NCBI GenBank assembly: GCA_015060885.1
Contig: SUXO01000001.1
Coordinates: 1-64,000, forward strand
Source: Bacteroidales bacterium
GTDB lineage: Bacteria; Bacteroidota; Bacteroidia; Bacteroidales; Bacteroidaceae
DNA length: 64,000 bases
Direction: 5' to 3'
The notes beneath the pieces were generated by a model, which was not told the origin of the DNA, made no database searches, and saw only the letters and a list, made by a program, of their open reading frames with translations. The position numbers and the translations under genes were made by a program. This document shows, in pieces, positions 4,402 to 55,877 of the stretch (positions are counted from its first letter, which is position 1; each line of letters begins with the position of its first letter).

Positions 4402-5460
4402 TTACGGGCAAACAGGGCGCACCGAGTAGCCGAAGGAGCGTTTGTCGTTGTACCACTCGAAGTAGCCGCTGTAGAAGTACAGGTAGTAAGCGTAGTAGCT
4501 GCGGCTGCTGCACAACGAACTCGACCAATAGTAGCCGCTGGTGCCTCCCGTACCGCCGCGGTAGCCCGCAGCGGGCAGGAAGATGCTGTTGCCATTGGGG
4601 CCGGTTACACGGTAACCCTCTACGCCGTTAAGAGTAGTCCAAGTCCAAGTGCAGTTGTTTATGAGTTCTCGTTGTTCTTCGTCGGTAGGCATTCGCCAAC
4701 TGCCGCCCCATTTAACGCTGGCTACATCGTCACCTGCTTCAAGGGTGGTTTTGTTGTCCACGGTGCCGTAACTGCTGCTTGTGCAGTATTTGGTCATCGA
4801 GTTAAAAGTGCCATTGCAATATTTATAGGTGCTCCATGAGTAGTCGCTCTTCTCCTCTGTTTCGCCCCAAGCGTAGTAACCGCCATACTCTTCGGGCTTT
4901 GTGGCACCCACATTGCACGAGGCCCATTTAAGTCCACTGGGCAAGCCGAGGTCAACAGCGCGTGAGTCGGTGGTAGGGGTGTCATCGTCGCTGTCGGGGT
5001 TCAGTATTATATTCACAACCTCGGTTACGTCGGCCACATCAACAGTGCCGTCACCATCGACATCGCCTTTCTTGCCTGCGGTTTCGGGGATTGTGATGGT
5101 GGCGTTGATTATCTTTGCCTGGTCGCTGCCGCTACTGCCACCATAGTCTTTGGTGTATTGGGCTACAAAGGTATAGACGCCGCTTTCGGTGAATTCGTGG
5201 GTGTAGGTGCCGCTGGCGGTTCCGCTCTTTTTAAGGATTTGGGTGCCGTCGAGGGTAACAATGAGCCAATCGTAATTGCTCTCGCTGCTTACGCTCCAAT
5301 CGAAAGTAAAAGTACAACCGGCGAAAGCACATATACCATAGCTGTTCTGTGAACTGCTGTTGTTGGTGCCGCCGTTGGTGGAGGTCCAGTCCTTGAAGGT
5401 CTGTGCACCGGCTGCAACAGTGAGCAGTAGGGCGGTTAAAAACAGGTAAATCTTTTTCAT
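4402..5460 (-). CDS. secreted protein with dockerin-like EF-hand segment and C-terminal FISUMP/C-type-lectin-like domain; candidate remote DGR target (VR2)
   Basis: Signal peptide MKKIYLFLTALLLTVAAGAQ, GDVDGDGTVDVADVTEVVNIIL, C-terminal LPAAGYRGGTGG...SVRPVCP; highly similar to 54610-55704. Confidence 0.8.
   Translation of the reverse strand: MKKIYLFLTALLLTVAAGAQTFKDWTSTNGGTNNSSSQNSYGICAFAGCTFTFDWSVSSESNYDWLIVTLDGTQILKKSGTASGTYTHEFTESGVYTFVAQYTKDYGGSSGSDQAKIINATITIPETAGKKGDVDGDGTVDVADVTEVVNIILNPDSDDDTPTTDSRAVDLGLPSGLKWASCNVGATKPEEYGGYYAWGETEEKSDYSWSTYKYCNGTFNSMTKYCTSSSYGTVDNKTTLEAGDDVASVKWGGSWRMPTDEEQRELINNCTWTWTTLNGVEGYRVTGPNGNSIFLPAAGYRGGTGGTSGYYWSSSLCSSRSYYAYYLYFYSGYFEWYNDKRSFGYSVRPVCP
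4412..4579 (-). repeat. candidate remote DGR variable repeat VR2 (168 nt)
   Basis: Aligns to the TR at 53112-53291 with about 24 adenine-site substitutions, about 4 non-adenine substitutions and one 12-nt deletion (hand alignment). Confidence 0.75.
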
Positions 5461-5500
5461 AGCTTTGTGTTTTATTTATTGGTTATTCCTATGATGAAAA

Positions 5501-12577: not shown

Positions 12578-12591
12578 ATTATACATTAACA

Positions 12592-12672
12592 AACTTTAAC
12601 AACGGCGACTATACCAAGAGCAACCGTGGTGACAGCTTCAACGGCCACACGGTGCACCCTGTTTGCCCGTAA
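12592..12672 (+). pseudogene. orphan DGR TR/VR-like (FISUMP C-terminal) fragment
   Basis: AAC TTT AAC AAC GGC GAC TAT ... TTC AAC GGC CAC ACG GTG CAC CCT GTT TGC CCG TAA = NFNNGDYTKSNRGDSFNGHTVHPVCP*; matches the 3' part of the TR (NGHTVRPV) and the VR2 end (PVCP*). Confidence 0.75.
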
Positions 12673-51892: not shown

Positions 51893-53092
51893 TCAAGTTG
51901 ATGAACCCCTGCTATAAACGAATTTTGAAAAACCATCGTTGAAACGGCCAAATTTAAGCAAGAAAGGAAGTGCTCCAAACATACATTTTCTTAACCCGAA
52001 ACTCGCATAATGCGACAACACCCCCAAAAAAGAATTAACCGAAGCACGTAAATATTCAGCACCATCATCGCCCGACAAAAGAGATACTTTCCTTTTCATT
52101 CTGCTCAATGACCTGTTTGCTATATAACTCCTGTAAGGTTTTGCATAACCGCCAAGAAATTCCACACCGTAACGCGCCTCGCGAATAAACAATTTATGCG
52201 GATGAACCTTCAAGCACAAAGCGTCGCGCAAAAAATCACTGACAACAGGCACTATGTCGCGTAATTCACCCTTATAAGGAGAAACAAAGAATGCATCATC
52301 AACATAACGCCCGTAACGTACGCCTCGTATATTACGTTTCACAAATTGGTCGATAACATTCATATAGACATTGCTGAAAAGTTGCGATGTTAAGTTACCG
52401 ATGGGCAACCCCTGCCCACAACCACTGTGAAAAAGACTCTTGTTACGCGGTAATCCACACCAATCGGCAGCAGAGCCCTTGATTTTACAACCTTCCAATG
52501 GGTCGTTCATTATTATCACTTGCGACAAATAGAGCAACAAAGAATAATCCAACTTATCACACCAACGTTTGCCTGCACAATCGGACGGCCTATCGGCCAT
52601 TCTAAGCAAAGCATCCCGGCAAATGTCAAACAGCCGCCTGCGCGATATATGCATAAAATATCCCATAATATCCATTTTAAGCACAAAGCACGGGCGGGTA
52701 TAATTCCTCGACACACTGCGTATGTGATGTTGCAGACGTTTAAAACCATAGTGTGTACCCTTTCCCTTTCGACAGCTATAACTATCGGCAATAAAAGTAC
52801 GCTCGAACAGCGCACACGTATAGTTATAATAAAGATGATGCACAACCCTGTCGCGAAATTCAGCTGCAAAAATCTCACGTTGTTTGGGGTCGTTTATTAT
52901 GAAACAAGTGGATGGAGCCGGTATATACCTCCGTTCCACAAGTTCGTCACGCAAAGCCACTAATTCTGTTTCAAAATCAAGTTCAAAAGACAATTGATAA
53001 AAACGTTTCCTTTTATGCCTGCGGGCATCCCTGTACGCTTTATACAAATCGACAAGAAGCTGTTGCGGAGTAATACAAAAAGAAGAAGGCAC
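51893..53092 (-). CDS. DGR reverse transcriptase
   Basis: FVLKMDIMGYFMHI, QGLPIGNLTSQLFSNVYMNVIDQFV (DGR-type motif 4 context), YGRYVDDAFFV catalytic box. ORF is open back to 53377 through the TR; a GTG at 53092 is a plausible start. Confidence 0.92.
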   Translation of the reverse strand: MPSSFCITPQQLLVDLYKAYRDARRHKRKRFYQLSFELDFETELVALRDELVERRYIPAPSTCFIINDPKQREIFAAEFRDRVVHHLYYNYTCALFERTFIADSYSCRKGKGTHYGFKRLQHHIRSVSRNYTRPCFVLKMDIMGYFMHISRRRLFDICRDALLRMADRPSDCAGKRWCDKLDYSLLLYLSQVIIMNDPLEGCKIKGSAADWCGLPRNKSLFHSGCGQGLPIGNLTSQLFSNVYMNVIDQFVKRNIRGVRYGRYVDDAFFVSPYKGELRDIVPVVSDFLRDALCLKVHPHKLFIREARYGVEFLGGYAKPYRSYIANRSLSRMKRKVSLLSGDDGAEYLRASVNSFLGVLSHYASFGLRKCMFGALPFLLKFGRFNDGFSKFVYSRGSST

Positions 53093-53104
53093 AGGAACCG
53101 CAAG

Positions 53105-53291
53105 TTCTGAGACAGGGCGCACCGTGTGGCCGTTGTAGCGGTTGTTGTTGTTCCAGTCGTAGTTGCCGCTGTTGAAGTTCAGGTTGTAAGCGTTGTTGCT
53201 GTTGTTGCTGTTCAACGAACTCGACCAATAGTTGCCGTTGGAGCCCTGGTTGTTGGCTTCCGTACCGTTGCGGTAGCCCGCAGCGGGCAGG
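53105..53291 (-). repeat. DGR template repeat (TR), 187 nt
   Basis: AAC-rich coding-strand sequence (SLNSNNSNNAYNLNFNSGNYDWNNNNRYNGHTVRPVSE) between avd and RT; gap-free with VR1, about 27 differences all at TR adenines. Confidence 0.95.
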
Positions 53292-53460
53292 CAAGCGGGA
53301 CAGCCATCTGTAATGAATGCCGATGCGGAGGCTTTATGCAACGTATCGGCAGGCTTTCTTAAATAATTTCCTGCCACCGCGTTTTTTCACTGTTTATTAA
53401 CGTATTCTCTTACATAGCAGGCAGGCTGTCTGAATTTGCTGTGGCACACTGCCGACGACC

Positions 53461-53853
53461 TTAATCGTGCGACACTCCGGCGACAAGCCCCTGCCCTTCT
53501 CTTTTGCTCCCCTTGTATGTGGCGCGTTCCCAAGCAGCCAACTGTTTCGACACCGAAACGGTAATCTCCATGAACATTGCAAATTGTTTGTCACTCAACT
53601 GCCGTGTATCATTGAACACCCTTAACAAAATCTGCACCTCCACAAGTTTCTCTCGCGCCTGTGATATATATTCAGCCTTGCTAAATGATTTATTAGCCTT
53701 GAATATCAGAACCAGCATATCCATCGAAGCACGTTTCACCTGCTCGCCCAGCGTGTAACGATAGTCGCGCCCCATCCTCGCCGTGCTTGTTACTAATTGC
53801 AGAAACAGACGATAGCACTCTTCATATACTTTCAGTTCGGTATATACAGCCAT
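53461..53853 (-). CDS. avd: DGR accessory variability determinant Avd (four-helix bundle, S23-like)
   Basis: YTELKVYEECYRLFLQLVTSTARMGRDYRYTLGEQVKRASMDMLVLIFKANKSFSK...AREKLVEVQILLRVFNDTRQLSDKQF; located between accessory gene and TR. Confidence 0.88.
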   Translation of the reverse strand: MAVYTELKVYEECYRLFLQLVTSTARMGRDYRYTLGEQVKRASMDMLVLIFKANKSFSKAEYISQAREKLVEVQILLRVFNDTRQLSDKQFAMFMEITVSVSKQLAAWERATYKGSKREGQGLVAGVSHD

Positions 53854-54360
53854 TTACAATAACCCTTTTAGCTCGGCAACAAAACACATACACTCCACCG
53901 GAGTGCGGCTTTCAACAGGAAAAGCTCGCAAGCGGGCAAGCGCTTCGCTCTCCCCCGGATTGTGCGACCGCAACACCTGAATTTCTGTGGCAGTTGCCGA
54001 AACAGTTTCGCTTCGTGCAGCCAAGCTTGCGCACAATGGTTGAGCACTTTTCCACTCCTCGAAAGTACCATCGCACGGCACCTCATATTGCGGAAGCACA
54101 AGATGCACTACACCATTCTCCACAGCTAATGAACGCCCCGCAGCCAATTTTTCGAGCGAATTCATAGGAAAACCTATACTCACAACATCCCGGCCCACAC
54201 ATTTCACATATTGTTTCTTTACCTTGAACGTGTGAACCGCGACGCTGAACAGCCACGCACTATGTTCATAGGCGATGTAAAAAACACCCTCACGATGGAG
54301 TATCACCGTGTTCAACGGTTTTTCTGCTTCCAACTGCAGTTTTTCCTTTATTGTTGCCAT
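53854..54360 (-). CDS. DGR accessory protein, MutS-domain-I-like (MSL type)
   Basis: VILHREGVFYIAYEHSAWLFSVAVHTFKVKKQYVKCVGRDVVSIGFPMNSLEKL; directly abuts avd. Confidence 0.65.
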   Translation of the reverse strand: MATIKEKLQLEAEKPLNTVILHREGVFYIAYEHSAWLFSVAVHTFKVKKQYVKCVGRDVVSIGFPMNSLEKLAAGRSLAVENGVVHLVLPQYEVPCDGTFEEWKSAQPLCASLAARSETVSATATEIQVLRSHNPGESEALARLRAFPVESRTPVECMCFVAELKGLL

Positions 54361-54372
54361 TTTTTTCGCTGC

Positions 54373-54540
54373 TTTTCTCCCCGCGCATCGAGCACGGGGA
54401 GAAAATTTTTAATAATTAAATCGTGCCTGCGGCACTGTTAAATCGACTGCGTCGATGATTGAGTTTTATCGCTCGACTGGCGATAAAACGCTCGCTCTTT
54501 TGTTTCATTGGCTCGTTTTACATTTCGCCACCCGCGTGGC
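54373..54540. other. cluster of five inverted repeats between VR1 and msl
   Basis: 54373-54405 (11-bp stem), 54423-54435, 54442-54456, 54463-54489 (10-bp stem), 54527-54540. Confidence 0.75.
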
Positions 54541-54588
54541 ATAAACTATGTCTATGCTTCACGCGACCATTGGCTGCAAAACTCGCCG

Positions 54589-54613
54589 ATAACAAAAACG
54601 AGCTTTTTGTTAT
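54589..54613. other. hairpin ATAACAAAAA-CGAGC-TTTTTGTTAT immediately 3' of VR1
   Basis: Perfect 10-bp inverted repeat overlapping the stop codon of the target gene. Confidence 0.85.
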
Positions 54614-55704
54614 TCTGAGACAGGGCGCACCGTGTGGCCGTAGTAGCGGCCGTAGTAGTACCAGTCGTAGCCGCCGCTGTAGAAGTACAGGCTGCAAGCG
54701 CTGTAGCTGTAGTAGCTGAACAACGAACTCGACCAACAGAAGCCGTAGGAGCCCTGGCCGTAGGCTCCCGTACCGCTGCGGTAGCCCGCAGCGGGCAGGA
54801 AGATGCTGTTGCCGTTGGGCCCGGTTACGCGGTAACCGTTAACACCGTTAAGAGTAGTCCAAGTCCAAGTGCACTTGTTTATGAGTTCTTGTTGTTCTTC
54901 GGTGGTGGGCATTCGCCAATTGCCGCCCCATTTAACGCTGGCTACATCGTCACTTGCTTCAAGGGTGGTTTTGTTGTCCACGGTGCCGTAACTGCTGCTT
55001 GTGCAGTATTTGGTCATTGTGTCATAAGTGCCGTTGCAATATTTATAGGTATCCCAGTCATAGTCGCTCTTCTCCTCTGTTTCGCCCCAAGCGTAATAGC
55101 CGCCGTACTCTTCGGGAGCGGTGGCACCCACGTTGCACGAGGCCCATTTAACCGAGAGGCCCAGGTCGATGGCGGTACCGACAGTTACAGAAGGGGTGCC
55201 GGGGGTAACAGTTGTGTTATCATCGTCATCGCTATCGGGGTTCAGTATTATATTCACAACCTCGGTAACATCGGCAACATCAATGCTGCCGTCGCCATCG
55301 ACGTCGCCTTTCTTGCCTGTGTTTGTTTCGGGGATTGTGATGGTGGCGTTGGTGATTTTTGCTTGGTCGCTGCCGCTGCTGCCACTGCCGTCTTTGGTGT
55401 ATTGGGCTACAAAGGTATAGACGCCGCTTTCGCTGAATTCGTGGGTGTAGGTGCCGTTGGCAGTTCCGCTCTTTTTAAGGATTTGGGTACCGTCGAGGGT
55501 AATAATGAGCCAGTCGTAATTGCTCTCGCTGCTTACGCTCCAATCGAAGGTGAAGGCGCAACCGGCTACTACTCCAACCGTGTAGCTGTTTTGCGATGTG
55601 CTGTTGTTGGTGCCGCCGTTGGTGGAGGTCCAATCCTTGAAGGTCTGCGCGCCGGCTGCAACAGTGAGCAGCAAGGCGGTTAAAAACAGGTAAATCTTTT
55701 TCAT
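54610..55704 (-). CDS. DGR target: secreted protein with dockerin-like EF-hand and C-terminal FISUMP/CLec-like variable domain
   Basis: Signal peptide MKKIYLFLTALLLTVAAGAQ; KKGDVDGDGSIDVADVTEVVNIIL; VR1 encodes GYRSGTGAYGQGSYGFCWSSSLFSYYSYSACSLYFYSGGYDWYYYGRYYGHTVRPVSE. Confidence 0.9.
   Translation of the reverse strand: MKKIYLFLTALLLTVAAGAQTFKDWTSTNGGTNNSTSQNSYTVGVVAGCAFTFDWSVSSESNYDWLIITLDGTQILKKSGTANGTYTHEFSESGVYTFVAQYTKDGSGSSGSDQAKITNATITIPETNTGKKGDVDGDGSIDVADVTEVVNIILNPDSDDDDNTTVTPGTPSVTVGTAIDLGLSVKWASCNVGATAPEEYGGYYAWGETEEKSDYDWDTYKYCNGTYDTMTKYCTSSSYGTVDNKTTLEASDDVASVKWGGNWRMPTTEEQQELINKCTWTWTTLNGVNGYRVTGPNGNSIFLPAAGYRSGTGAYGQGSYGFCWSSSLFSYYSYSACSLYFYSGGYDWYYYGRYYGHTVRPVSE
54613..54799 (-). 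repeat. DGR variable repeat VR1, 187 nt
   Basis: Gap-free alignment with the TR; substitutions only at TR adenines (hand count about 27). Confidence 0.95.
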
Positions 55705-55755
55705 AGCTTTTTATATTTTAATTGGTTAATGTCTTGCTCACTAATGCACACAACG

Positions 55756-55773
55756 TGCTGCCGAGCGGCAGCA
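55756..55773. other. hairpin TGCTGCCG-AG-CGGCAGCA upstream of DGR target
   Basis: Perfect 8-bp inverted repeat 52-69 nt upstream of the target start codon. Confidence 0.7.

Positions 55774-55827: not shown

Positions 55828-55877
<50 letters not shown>

Follow-up and report, generated by a model that had tools for sequence, protein, structure and literature searches.

Positions 1 to 64,000 of contig SUXO01000001.1 (forward strand, NCBI GenBank assembly GCA_015060885.1) come from a Bacteroidales bacterium of the Bacteroidaceae. This stretch, hereafter the window, was examined for a diversity-generating retroelement (DGR) that a preliminary description, made from the sequence alone, had placed on the minus strand. 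The element spans 51893-55704 on that strand. In order of transcription it comprises a target gene (T1) ending in a variable repeat (VR1), the accessory genes for MSL and Avd, a template repeat (TR), and a reverse transcriptase (RT) gene. All parts are present in the order described, and the open reading frames (ORFs), TR and VR1 were all located (Table 1). The preliminary description had missed a structured RNA in the avd-TR gap and the in-frame position of TR within the RT ORF. The RT, Avd and MSL frames are intact and the RT motifs are complete, including the LPIGNLTSQLFSN and YVDD motifs already noted. The element is chromosomal, flanked by succinate dehydrogenase/fumarate reductase-type genes on one side and an mnmG-like gene on the other.

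Table 1. Features of the DGR and of related sequences in the window.
Feature	Position	Strand	Remarks
RT open frame, stop to stop	51893..53386	-	holds TR in the VR reading frame; RT domain from 53104
TR	53105..53289	-	185 nt, 57 A; 3' end GGTGCGCCCTGTCTCAGAA (IMH*-like)
RT-7-like structured RNA (Rfam RF03028)	53293..53481	-	model 1-191, 70.7 bits, E 2.7e-16; overlaps last 21 nt of avd
RT-7 closing helix, 3' arm GGCTGTC	53299..53305	-	ends 9 nt before TR core
RT-7 closing helix, 5' arm GACAGCC	53424..53430	-	
Avd	53461..53853	-	130 aa, four-helix-bundle DGR accessory protein
MSL	53854..54360	-	168 aa; putative MutS domain I (residues ~6-79) and MutS C-terminal tail (residues ~130-165); no ATPase, clamp or lever
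Inverted repeat directly after VR1	54589..54613	-	ATAACAAAAA-GCTCG-TTTTTGTTAT; 10-bp perfect stem, 5-nt loop
VR1	54613..54797	-	3' end of T1
Target gene T1	54610..55704	-	364 aa; signal peptide seen by eye; N part rich in beta structure; weak match to dockerin; probable Lcl_C/FISUMP-type domain at the C-terminus
VR2, in T2	4412..4579	-	one 12-nt gap
Target gene T2	4402..5460	-	T1 paralogue, 84% amino acid identity
VR/target 3'-end remnant	12591..12662	+	without full gene

TR and VR1 align without gaps over 185 nt. None of the 128 C, G or T positions differ, while 27/57 A positions do, comprising 15 A to T changes, 12 A to G changes and no A to C change. The hypergeometric probability that all 27 mismatches fall on A is ∼7e-17. 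A to C is the rarest class in a published DGR survey (PMC3521204). Both repeats end in the same 3' segment, GGTGCGCCCTGTCTCAGAA, and the sequence difference between IMH and IMH* of BPP-1 has no counterpart here.

The RT matches Pfam RVT_1 with 44 bits and carries an LPIGNLTSQ-type motif and YxDD. Among solved structures it is closest to the BPP-1 DGR RT (8ub7, 2e-32), followed by the GsI-IIC group II RT (1.3e-6) and others (4e-5 to 8.5e-4). A FastTree phylogeny of the fetched relatives and PDB reference RTs, coarse in that the references are fragments, joined it to the BPP-1 RT (0.978) and left the group II and other RTs outside this group. An RT phylogeny was among the checks that the preliminary description had proposed; it and the structure ranking both favour a DGR over a group II intron or retron type. 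Because the TR/VR mismatches are A-specific, the RT is nearest to that of BPP-1, and Avd and a probable Lcl_C/FISUMP-type target are present, the element is a complete DGR by every decisive feature that can be tested in sequence. As a DGR it is ordinary for the order; less ordinary are its template RNA and its accessory set. Of the features earlier singled out as notable, the accessory set merits attention, and the template RNA merits more; many DGRs have additional VRs and a target of the FISUMP/Lcl_C type (PMC6642488, PMC8143477).

TR was used to search the genome to which the window belongs (2.24 Mb, 88.5% complete). Three further adenine-biased VRs were identified, at C37:35347-35526, at C47:1611-1790 and, within the window, at 4579-4412 (VR2), along with weak remnants that include a weak VR on C33. 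Substitutions relative to TR at adenines and at other bases number 25/6, 26/8 and 23/4 respectively (P 1e-9 to 3e-10 for the bias). Each of these VRs ends a paralogous gene with the same C-terminal domain. Of the extra VR-like sites in the window, VR2 stands as a second VR in a paralogous target gene, and the one at 12591-12662 is only a ∼70 nt fragment. DGRs often have targets that are remote or multiple (PMC6642488, PMC8144416).

VR1 is the sole VR without non-A differences and was therefore probably overwritten most recently, the other VRs being older or less used. That the element has decayed and is now inactive seems very improbable. The 4-8 non-A differences in the remote VRs and the lack of a clear ATG for the RT would fit decay, but VR1 has kept all 128 non-A positions and the RT, Avd and MSL are intact, with a full set of RT motifs. 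We infer that VR1 was rewritten recently on an evolutionary scale and that the element may still be active. The host is a gut-type bacterium in which the DGR has probably been rewriting the tip of a secreted protein.

An RNA domain on the 5' side of the template repeat

The sequence between avd and TR was matched to the Rfam family RT-7 over the whole length of the model. In the window the closing helix and the last hairpin pair, and the first hairpin pairs partly. Among the relatives, L079 scores above the curated cut-off (133.5 bits) and L095, L031 and L073 match weakly. RT-7 was found in 16/393 genomes of the order, at 28 places. In 23/27 places besides the window a TR-like AAC-rich repeat, judged by eye, lies directly 3' of RT-7. 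Of the four exceptions, two copies are degenerate, an insertion splits the third, and the fourth is a short match with little strength.

The sequence of the closing helix varies between loci while its pairing is kept, that is, it covaries. The arms include GACAGCC/GGCTGTC in the window and GGCAATC/GATTGCC, GGCAGTC/GACTGCC, GGCAGCC/GGCTGCC, AGTAACC/GGTTACT, AGCGGCC/GGCCGCT and AATAATC/GATTATT elsewhere. In a permutation test the 5' arm region of each locus was paired with the 3' regions of other loci. The pairing sum was 620 for the loci's own arms compared with a permuted mean of 537.6 and a maximum of 588, so that 0/1000 permutations reached it; L073, L075 and L081 were not convincing singly. 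A closing helix of this type is also present in the relatives with MSL only, which escape the RT-7 model. Since a TR-like repeat adjoins RT-7 in 23/27 places and the closing helix covaries, the RT-7-type RNA forms, on these comparative grounds, the structured 5' part of the DGR template RNA; in this element its closing helix ends 9 nt before TR.

RT-7 could instead be a separate cis-regulator of the downstream RT gene, such as a leader or a riboswitch-like element, and no part of the template RNA. Its position in the 5' region of the RT ORF would suit that role, and the Rfam entry describes only a small RNA named after RTs. The adjoining TR-like repeat argues against it, as it is also found in tandem units that have no RT in the 9 kb examined (L160), and we consider a regulator improbable. 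The template-domain reading draws on the same Rfam entry, with which the window shares a whole-length match, the place beside an RT and the closing helix; it differs in scoring below the curated value and in linking the family to a function, the 5' domain of a DGR template RNA. No mention of RT-7 was found in the literature searched; the original RT-7 paper (Weinberg et al. 2017) and the DGR survey of Wu et al. 2018 lay outside that search and may already state the RT-7/TR link or describe MSL-only DGRs.

Stand-alone RT-7/TR-like units were also observed. Four lie in tandem on L160 (G678:C36:112500-121500), others on further contigs (also L161, L162, L163 and L164), and several in G609. No RT, Avd or MSL was found near the tandem units in the 9 kb examined. 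The units differ from one another largely, though not only, at columns where one of them has A. This suggests template RNAs that work in trans, with many per RT. In L140 (G535) and L146/L085 (G695) the TR or RT-7 region is split by a similar insert that resembles, by eye, a GIY-YIG endonuclease gene.

The relatives L031, L073, L074 and L105 have avd-TR gap sequence in common. Between L031 and L074 this leader differs at 5, 7 and 7 first, second and third codon positions, its pS is 0.25 compared with 0.83 in the RT, and its conservation continues upstream beyond the stop codon. Because all codon positions are kept alike and the leader coincides with RT-7, it appears to be conserved as RNA and not as protein. 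A translated RT leader ('MVNK...') was reduced to a rival reading, first by this nucleotide-level conservation and then by the Rfam match.

That rival holds that the RT is made as a fusion, translation starting upstream of TR (at GTG 53377 in the window, at ATG in relatives) and adding a lectin-like N-terminal peptide encoded by TR. The window's RT frame has no in-frame ATG before the RT domain, and GTG codons occur at 53377 and 53092. TR lies within the RT open frame, in the VR frame, in 8/14 RTs of the clade (the window and 7/13 relatives). In three of these RTs (L031, L073 and L081) no ATG, GTG or TTG codon separates TR from the RT core, and the TR-RT linkers differ in length by multiples of three. 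On the other side, the leader behaves like RNA and coincides with RT-7, the window and L105 have a GTG or ATG after TR, and L078, L083 and L109 start normally after a stop. The overlap of TR with the 5' end of annotated RT ORFs is moreover an arrangement already published as cassette group 3 of the DiGReF survey of 2012 (PMC3521204). The elements studied here share that overlap but differ in that the whole TR is inside the frame, that it is in the VR frame in 8/14 clade members, and that the leader is an RNA structure. We take a fusion seriously without preferring it to a leader conserved as RNA.

A structured spacer 3' of TR within the RT gene, of the BPP-1 type, was rejected; in the first 30 RT codons third-position change is not suppressed. 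One further member, L077 (G090:C52), is an Avd-less DGR RT with one in-frame TAG and with TR out of frame, and is perhaps decaying.

MSL, Avd and the loss of Avd

The small accessory gene upstream of avd had been called MSL-like, with a likeness to a MutS domain. This assignment was right and can probably be refined to MutS domain I plus the MutS C-terminal tail. The name MSL was reportedly given in the DGR survey of Wu et al. 2018. Twenty-one MSL homologues were collected, all upstream of DGR parts, with the conserved motifs EGxFxRAYExSA, GFP and, C-terminally, TPxEC..FLAEL. Pfam MutS_I (PF01624) matches 10/21 of them, at best with 1.6e-4. A hidden Markov model (HMM) of the family aligns co-linearly with the host MutS at its two ends (residues 17-90 and 841-874 of 876). 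On domain I of 20 MutS proteins it scores 9-24 bits compared with a shuffle maximum of 4.1, and on the MutS C-tail 10.2 compared with 3.0. An AlphaFold model (pLDDT 85.8) has MutS proteins as its five best Foldseek matches in the PDB and as most of the top 17.

We interpret MSL as a pared-down MutS that retains the mismatch-reading domain and the tail. The remote likeness in sequence and fold is found at both ends; the differences are the size, 168 compared with 876 residues, and the absence of the connector, lever, clamp and ATPase (domain V with its Walker motif) and of the Glu of F-x-E. The Phe of the mismatch wedge is invariant (F27, 21/21). The Glu of the F-x-E motif is replaced by R, H, K, I or others in the homologues, so mismatch specificity may be gone. 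The full-length mutS of the host (G000:C53:73169-73513) lies outside the window on the same contig.

One function that would follow from this composition is a mismatch shield, in which MSL is a domain-I decoy that coats cDNA/VR mismatches against MutS repair. It would account for the retention of just the mismatch-binding domain and C-tail, co-linear with the ends of the host MutS, and for the invariant wedge Phe; a full mutS ∼20 kb from the DGR is also compatible with it. The lost Glu speaks against a shield. So does the BPP-1 kanamycin-repair assay in E. coli, where mutS deletion was without effect (PMC12875486), though the edit in that assay is an 18-nt insertion, invisible to MutS. On balance a shield is somewhat doubtful.

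Avd, also named in the preliminary description, was confirmed by a match to phrog_3206 'Avd protein of DGR' (3.7e-20); NF033474 gave 43.6 bits (cut-off 80). A monophyletic clade of nine related RTs (support 0.996) was searched with HMMs for both accessory proteins. MSL is present in 8/9 and Avd near the RT in 0/9. Searches of the whole genomes with the Avd alignment found no Avd in six of the nine, including the single-contig G146, and only weak, distant four-helix-bundle matches in the other three. The window's lineage, which keeps both proteins, is sister or basal to this clade. Judged from the tree and these searches, Avd was lost once while MSL was kept in this clade of nine relatives. MSL can thus function in the absence of Avd, and where MSL is present Avd is not always required.

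MSL might instead be a structural substitute for Avd, one that binds the RT and the template RNA but does not recognise mismatches in DNA. Besides the single loss of Avd, with six genomes lacking it anywhere, the greater length of MSL in Avd-less loci (177-184 residues compared with 162-168 in the window's sub-lineage) is in keeping with substitution. The window's lineage, however, retains both, which indicates that the two proteins are not simply interchangeable. We regard substitution as plausible, but not as the better reading of MSL.

Proposed mechanism and comparison with known systems

In the proposed mechanism the template would be one RNA, with the RT-7-type structured 5' domain followed by TR. 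The RT, together with Avd and MSL, would reverse-transcribe TR and introduce errors at adenines. The RT-7 fold, which closes 9 nt before TR, may provide a natural stop for the cDNA, and the RT complex is likely to dock there. The cDNA would then replace VR1 in the secreted T1, guided by the GGTGCGCCCTGTCTCAGAA segment and the hairpin behind VR1, and the VRs of the paralogues would be replaced less often or would have been replaced formerly. MSL most likely binds the cDNA or the cDNA/VR heteroduplex, where it could aid integration or shield mismatches from MutS. That this is a chromosomal DGR in which RT, Avd and MSL rewrite VR1 from an RT-7-TR template RNA is, in our judgement, highly probable.

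Several points weigh against this explanation. The RT-7 match in the window, at 70.7 bits, is below the Rfam curated cut-off of 116.8, and one internal RT-7 helix is largely broken. MSL of the window has no Pfam match above cut-off, the MSL profile has no match among PDB sequences, and the Foldseek E-values are 0.07 and up, which makes the link to MutS remote. The activity argument rests on one genome. Finally, the stem behind VR1 is A/T-rich with a 5-nt loop, whereas in phage DGRs the stems are G+C-rich with 4-nt GRNA loops (PMC3240598); because its stem and loop are unlike those of BPP-1, it could also be a terminator. This inverted repeat nevertheless occupies the place of the BPP-1 hairpin/cruciform, which raises retrohoming (PMC3240598). 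None follows TR. Comparable repeats follow the VR in several other loci, and some loci have none.

A bolder version of the mechanism has the template scaffold moved to the 5' side. RT-7 would both recruit the RT complex, as the 3' spacer does in BPP-1, and end the cDNA. RT-7/TR would form a self-contained, trans-acting module that some genomes also carry as separate copies at other sites. The ATPase-less mini-MutS would be the essential protein partner; it would stand in for Avd in the sister clade and might conceal the mutated heteroduplex from mismatch repair. As a whole this version is tentative, and unlikely to hold in every part.

The element shares with the BPP-1 DGR of the Bordetella phage the A-specific TR/VR mismatches, a homologous RT, Avd, the order target-Avd-TR-RT, and an inverted repeat after the VR. 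It differs in having MSL, in being bacterial and not phage-borne, and in its secreted target. BPP-1 recruits bRT-Avd through a structured spacer that separates TR from the RT gene, and its cDNA is terminated by a motif at the 3' end of avd (PMC12875486, PMC8867640). Here, by contrast, the structured RNA lies 5' of TR and RT coding begins immediately after TR. DGRs of Bacteroidales that have FISUMP/DUF1566 (Lcl_C) targets, such as those of Bacuni phages (PMC8143477), resemble the present element in Avd, in a remote second target and, probably, in the type of target domain. The window's DGR is chromosomal, however, its RT is only ∼32-36% identical to the phage relatives, and no phage relative of MSL was found.

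The mechanism of DGRs is known mainly from one phage element. A recognisable 5' domain of the template RNA offers a handle on cDNA definition and priming in other DGRs, and an orphan Rfam family gains a likely function. With RT-7 as a search key, template RNAs distant from every RT could also be located; surveys confined to the neighbourhood of the RT miss remote parts, as has been stated for remote targets (PMC8144416). DGRs that kept MSL and lost Avd make both accessory roles directly testable, and likewise the unsolved question of how retrohoming is connected to mismatch repair. Most deserving of further work are the association of RT-7 with TR and the clade that has MSL but no Avd.

Distribution and target genes

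This RT type is sporadic. It was found in 2/44 genomes of the genus, with 54% identity between the two, in 9/301 genomes of the family (E ≤ 1e-60) and in 23/393 of the order (E ≤ 1e-70). A single RT and a single RT-7 were detected in the window's own genome. No close RT relatives were found in phages, plasmids or IMG/VR (best ∼37% identity). A phage origin was rejected on this basis, together with the negative search for MSL in phages and the housekeeping neighbours.

T1 had been described as a secreted dockerin/FISUMP protein with a C-terminal VR1. VR1 is indeed at its 3' end and a signal peptide is visible by eye; the Dockerin_1 (19.9 bits) and Lcl_C (26.3 bits, cut-off 34.9) matches both fall below the Pfam cut-offs. 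Its predicted structure (pLDDT 42) was too poor and was not used.

A tandem pair of paralogous lipoprotein-like genes, which share the C-terminal domain of the targets, lies at L014:248-2050 (G000:C33). Their VR-like ends are strongly diverged, and they are perhaps former DGR targets. A 5' untranslated sequence, TTAACCAAT...AAAGCTATGAAAAAGA, is common to T1 (55705-55770), T2 (5461-5500) and the C37 target (L012 1010-1050), as if it had been copied with the gene or the three were co-regulated. A (CA)21 repeat at 55833-55874, 129 nt upstream of the T1 start codon, is a possible slippage-driven on/off switch for T1.

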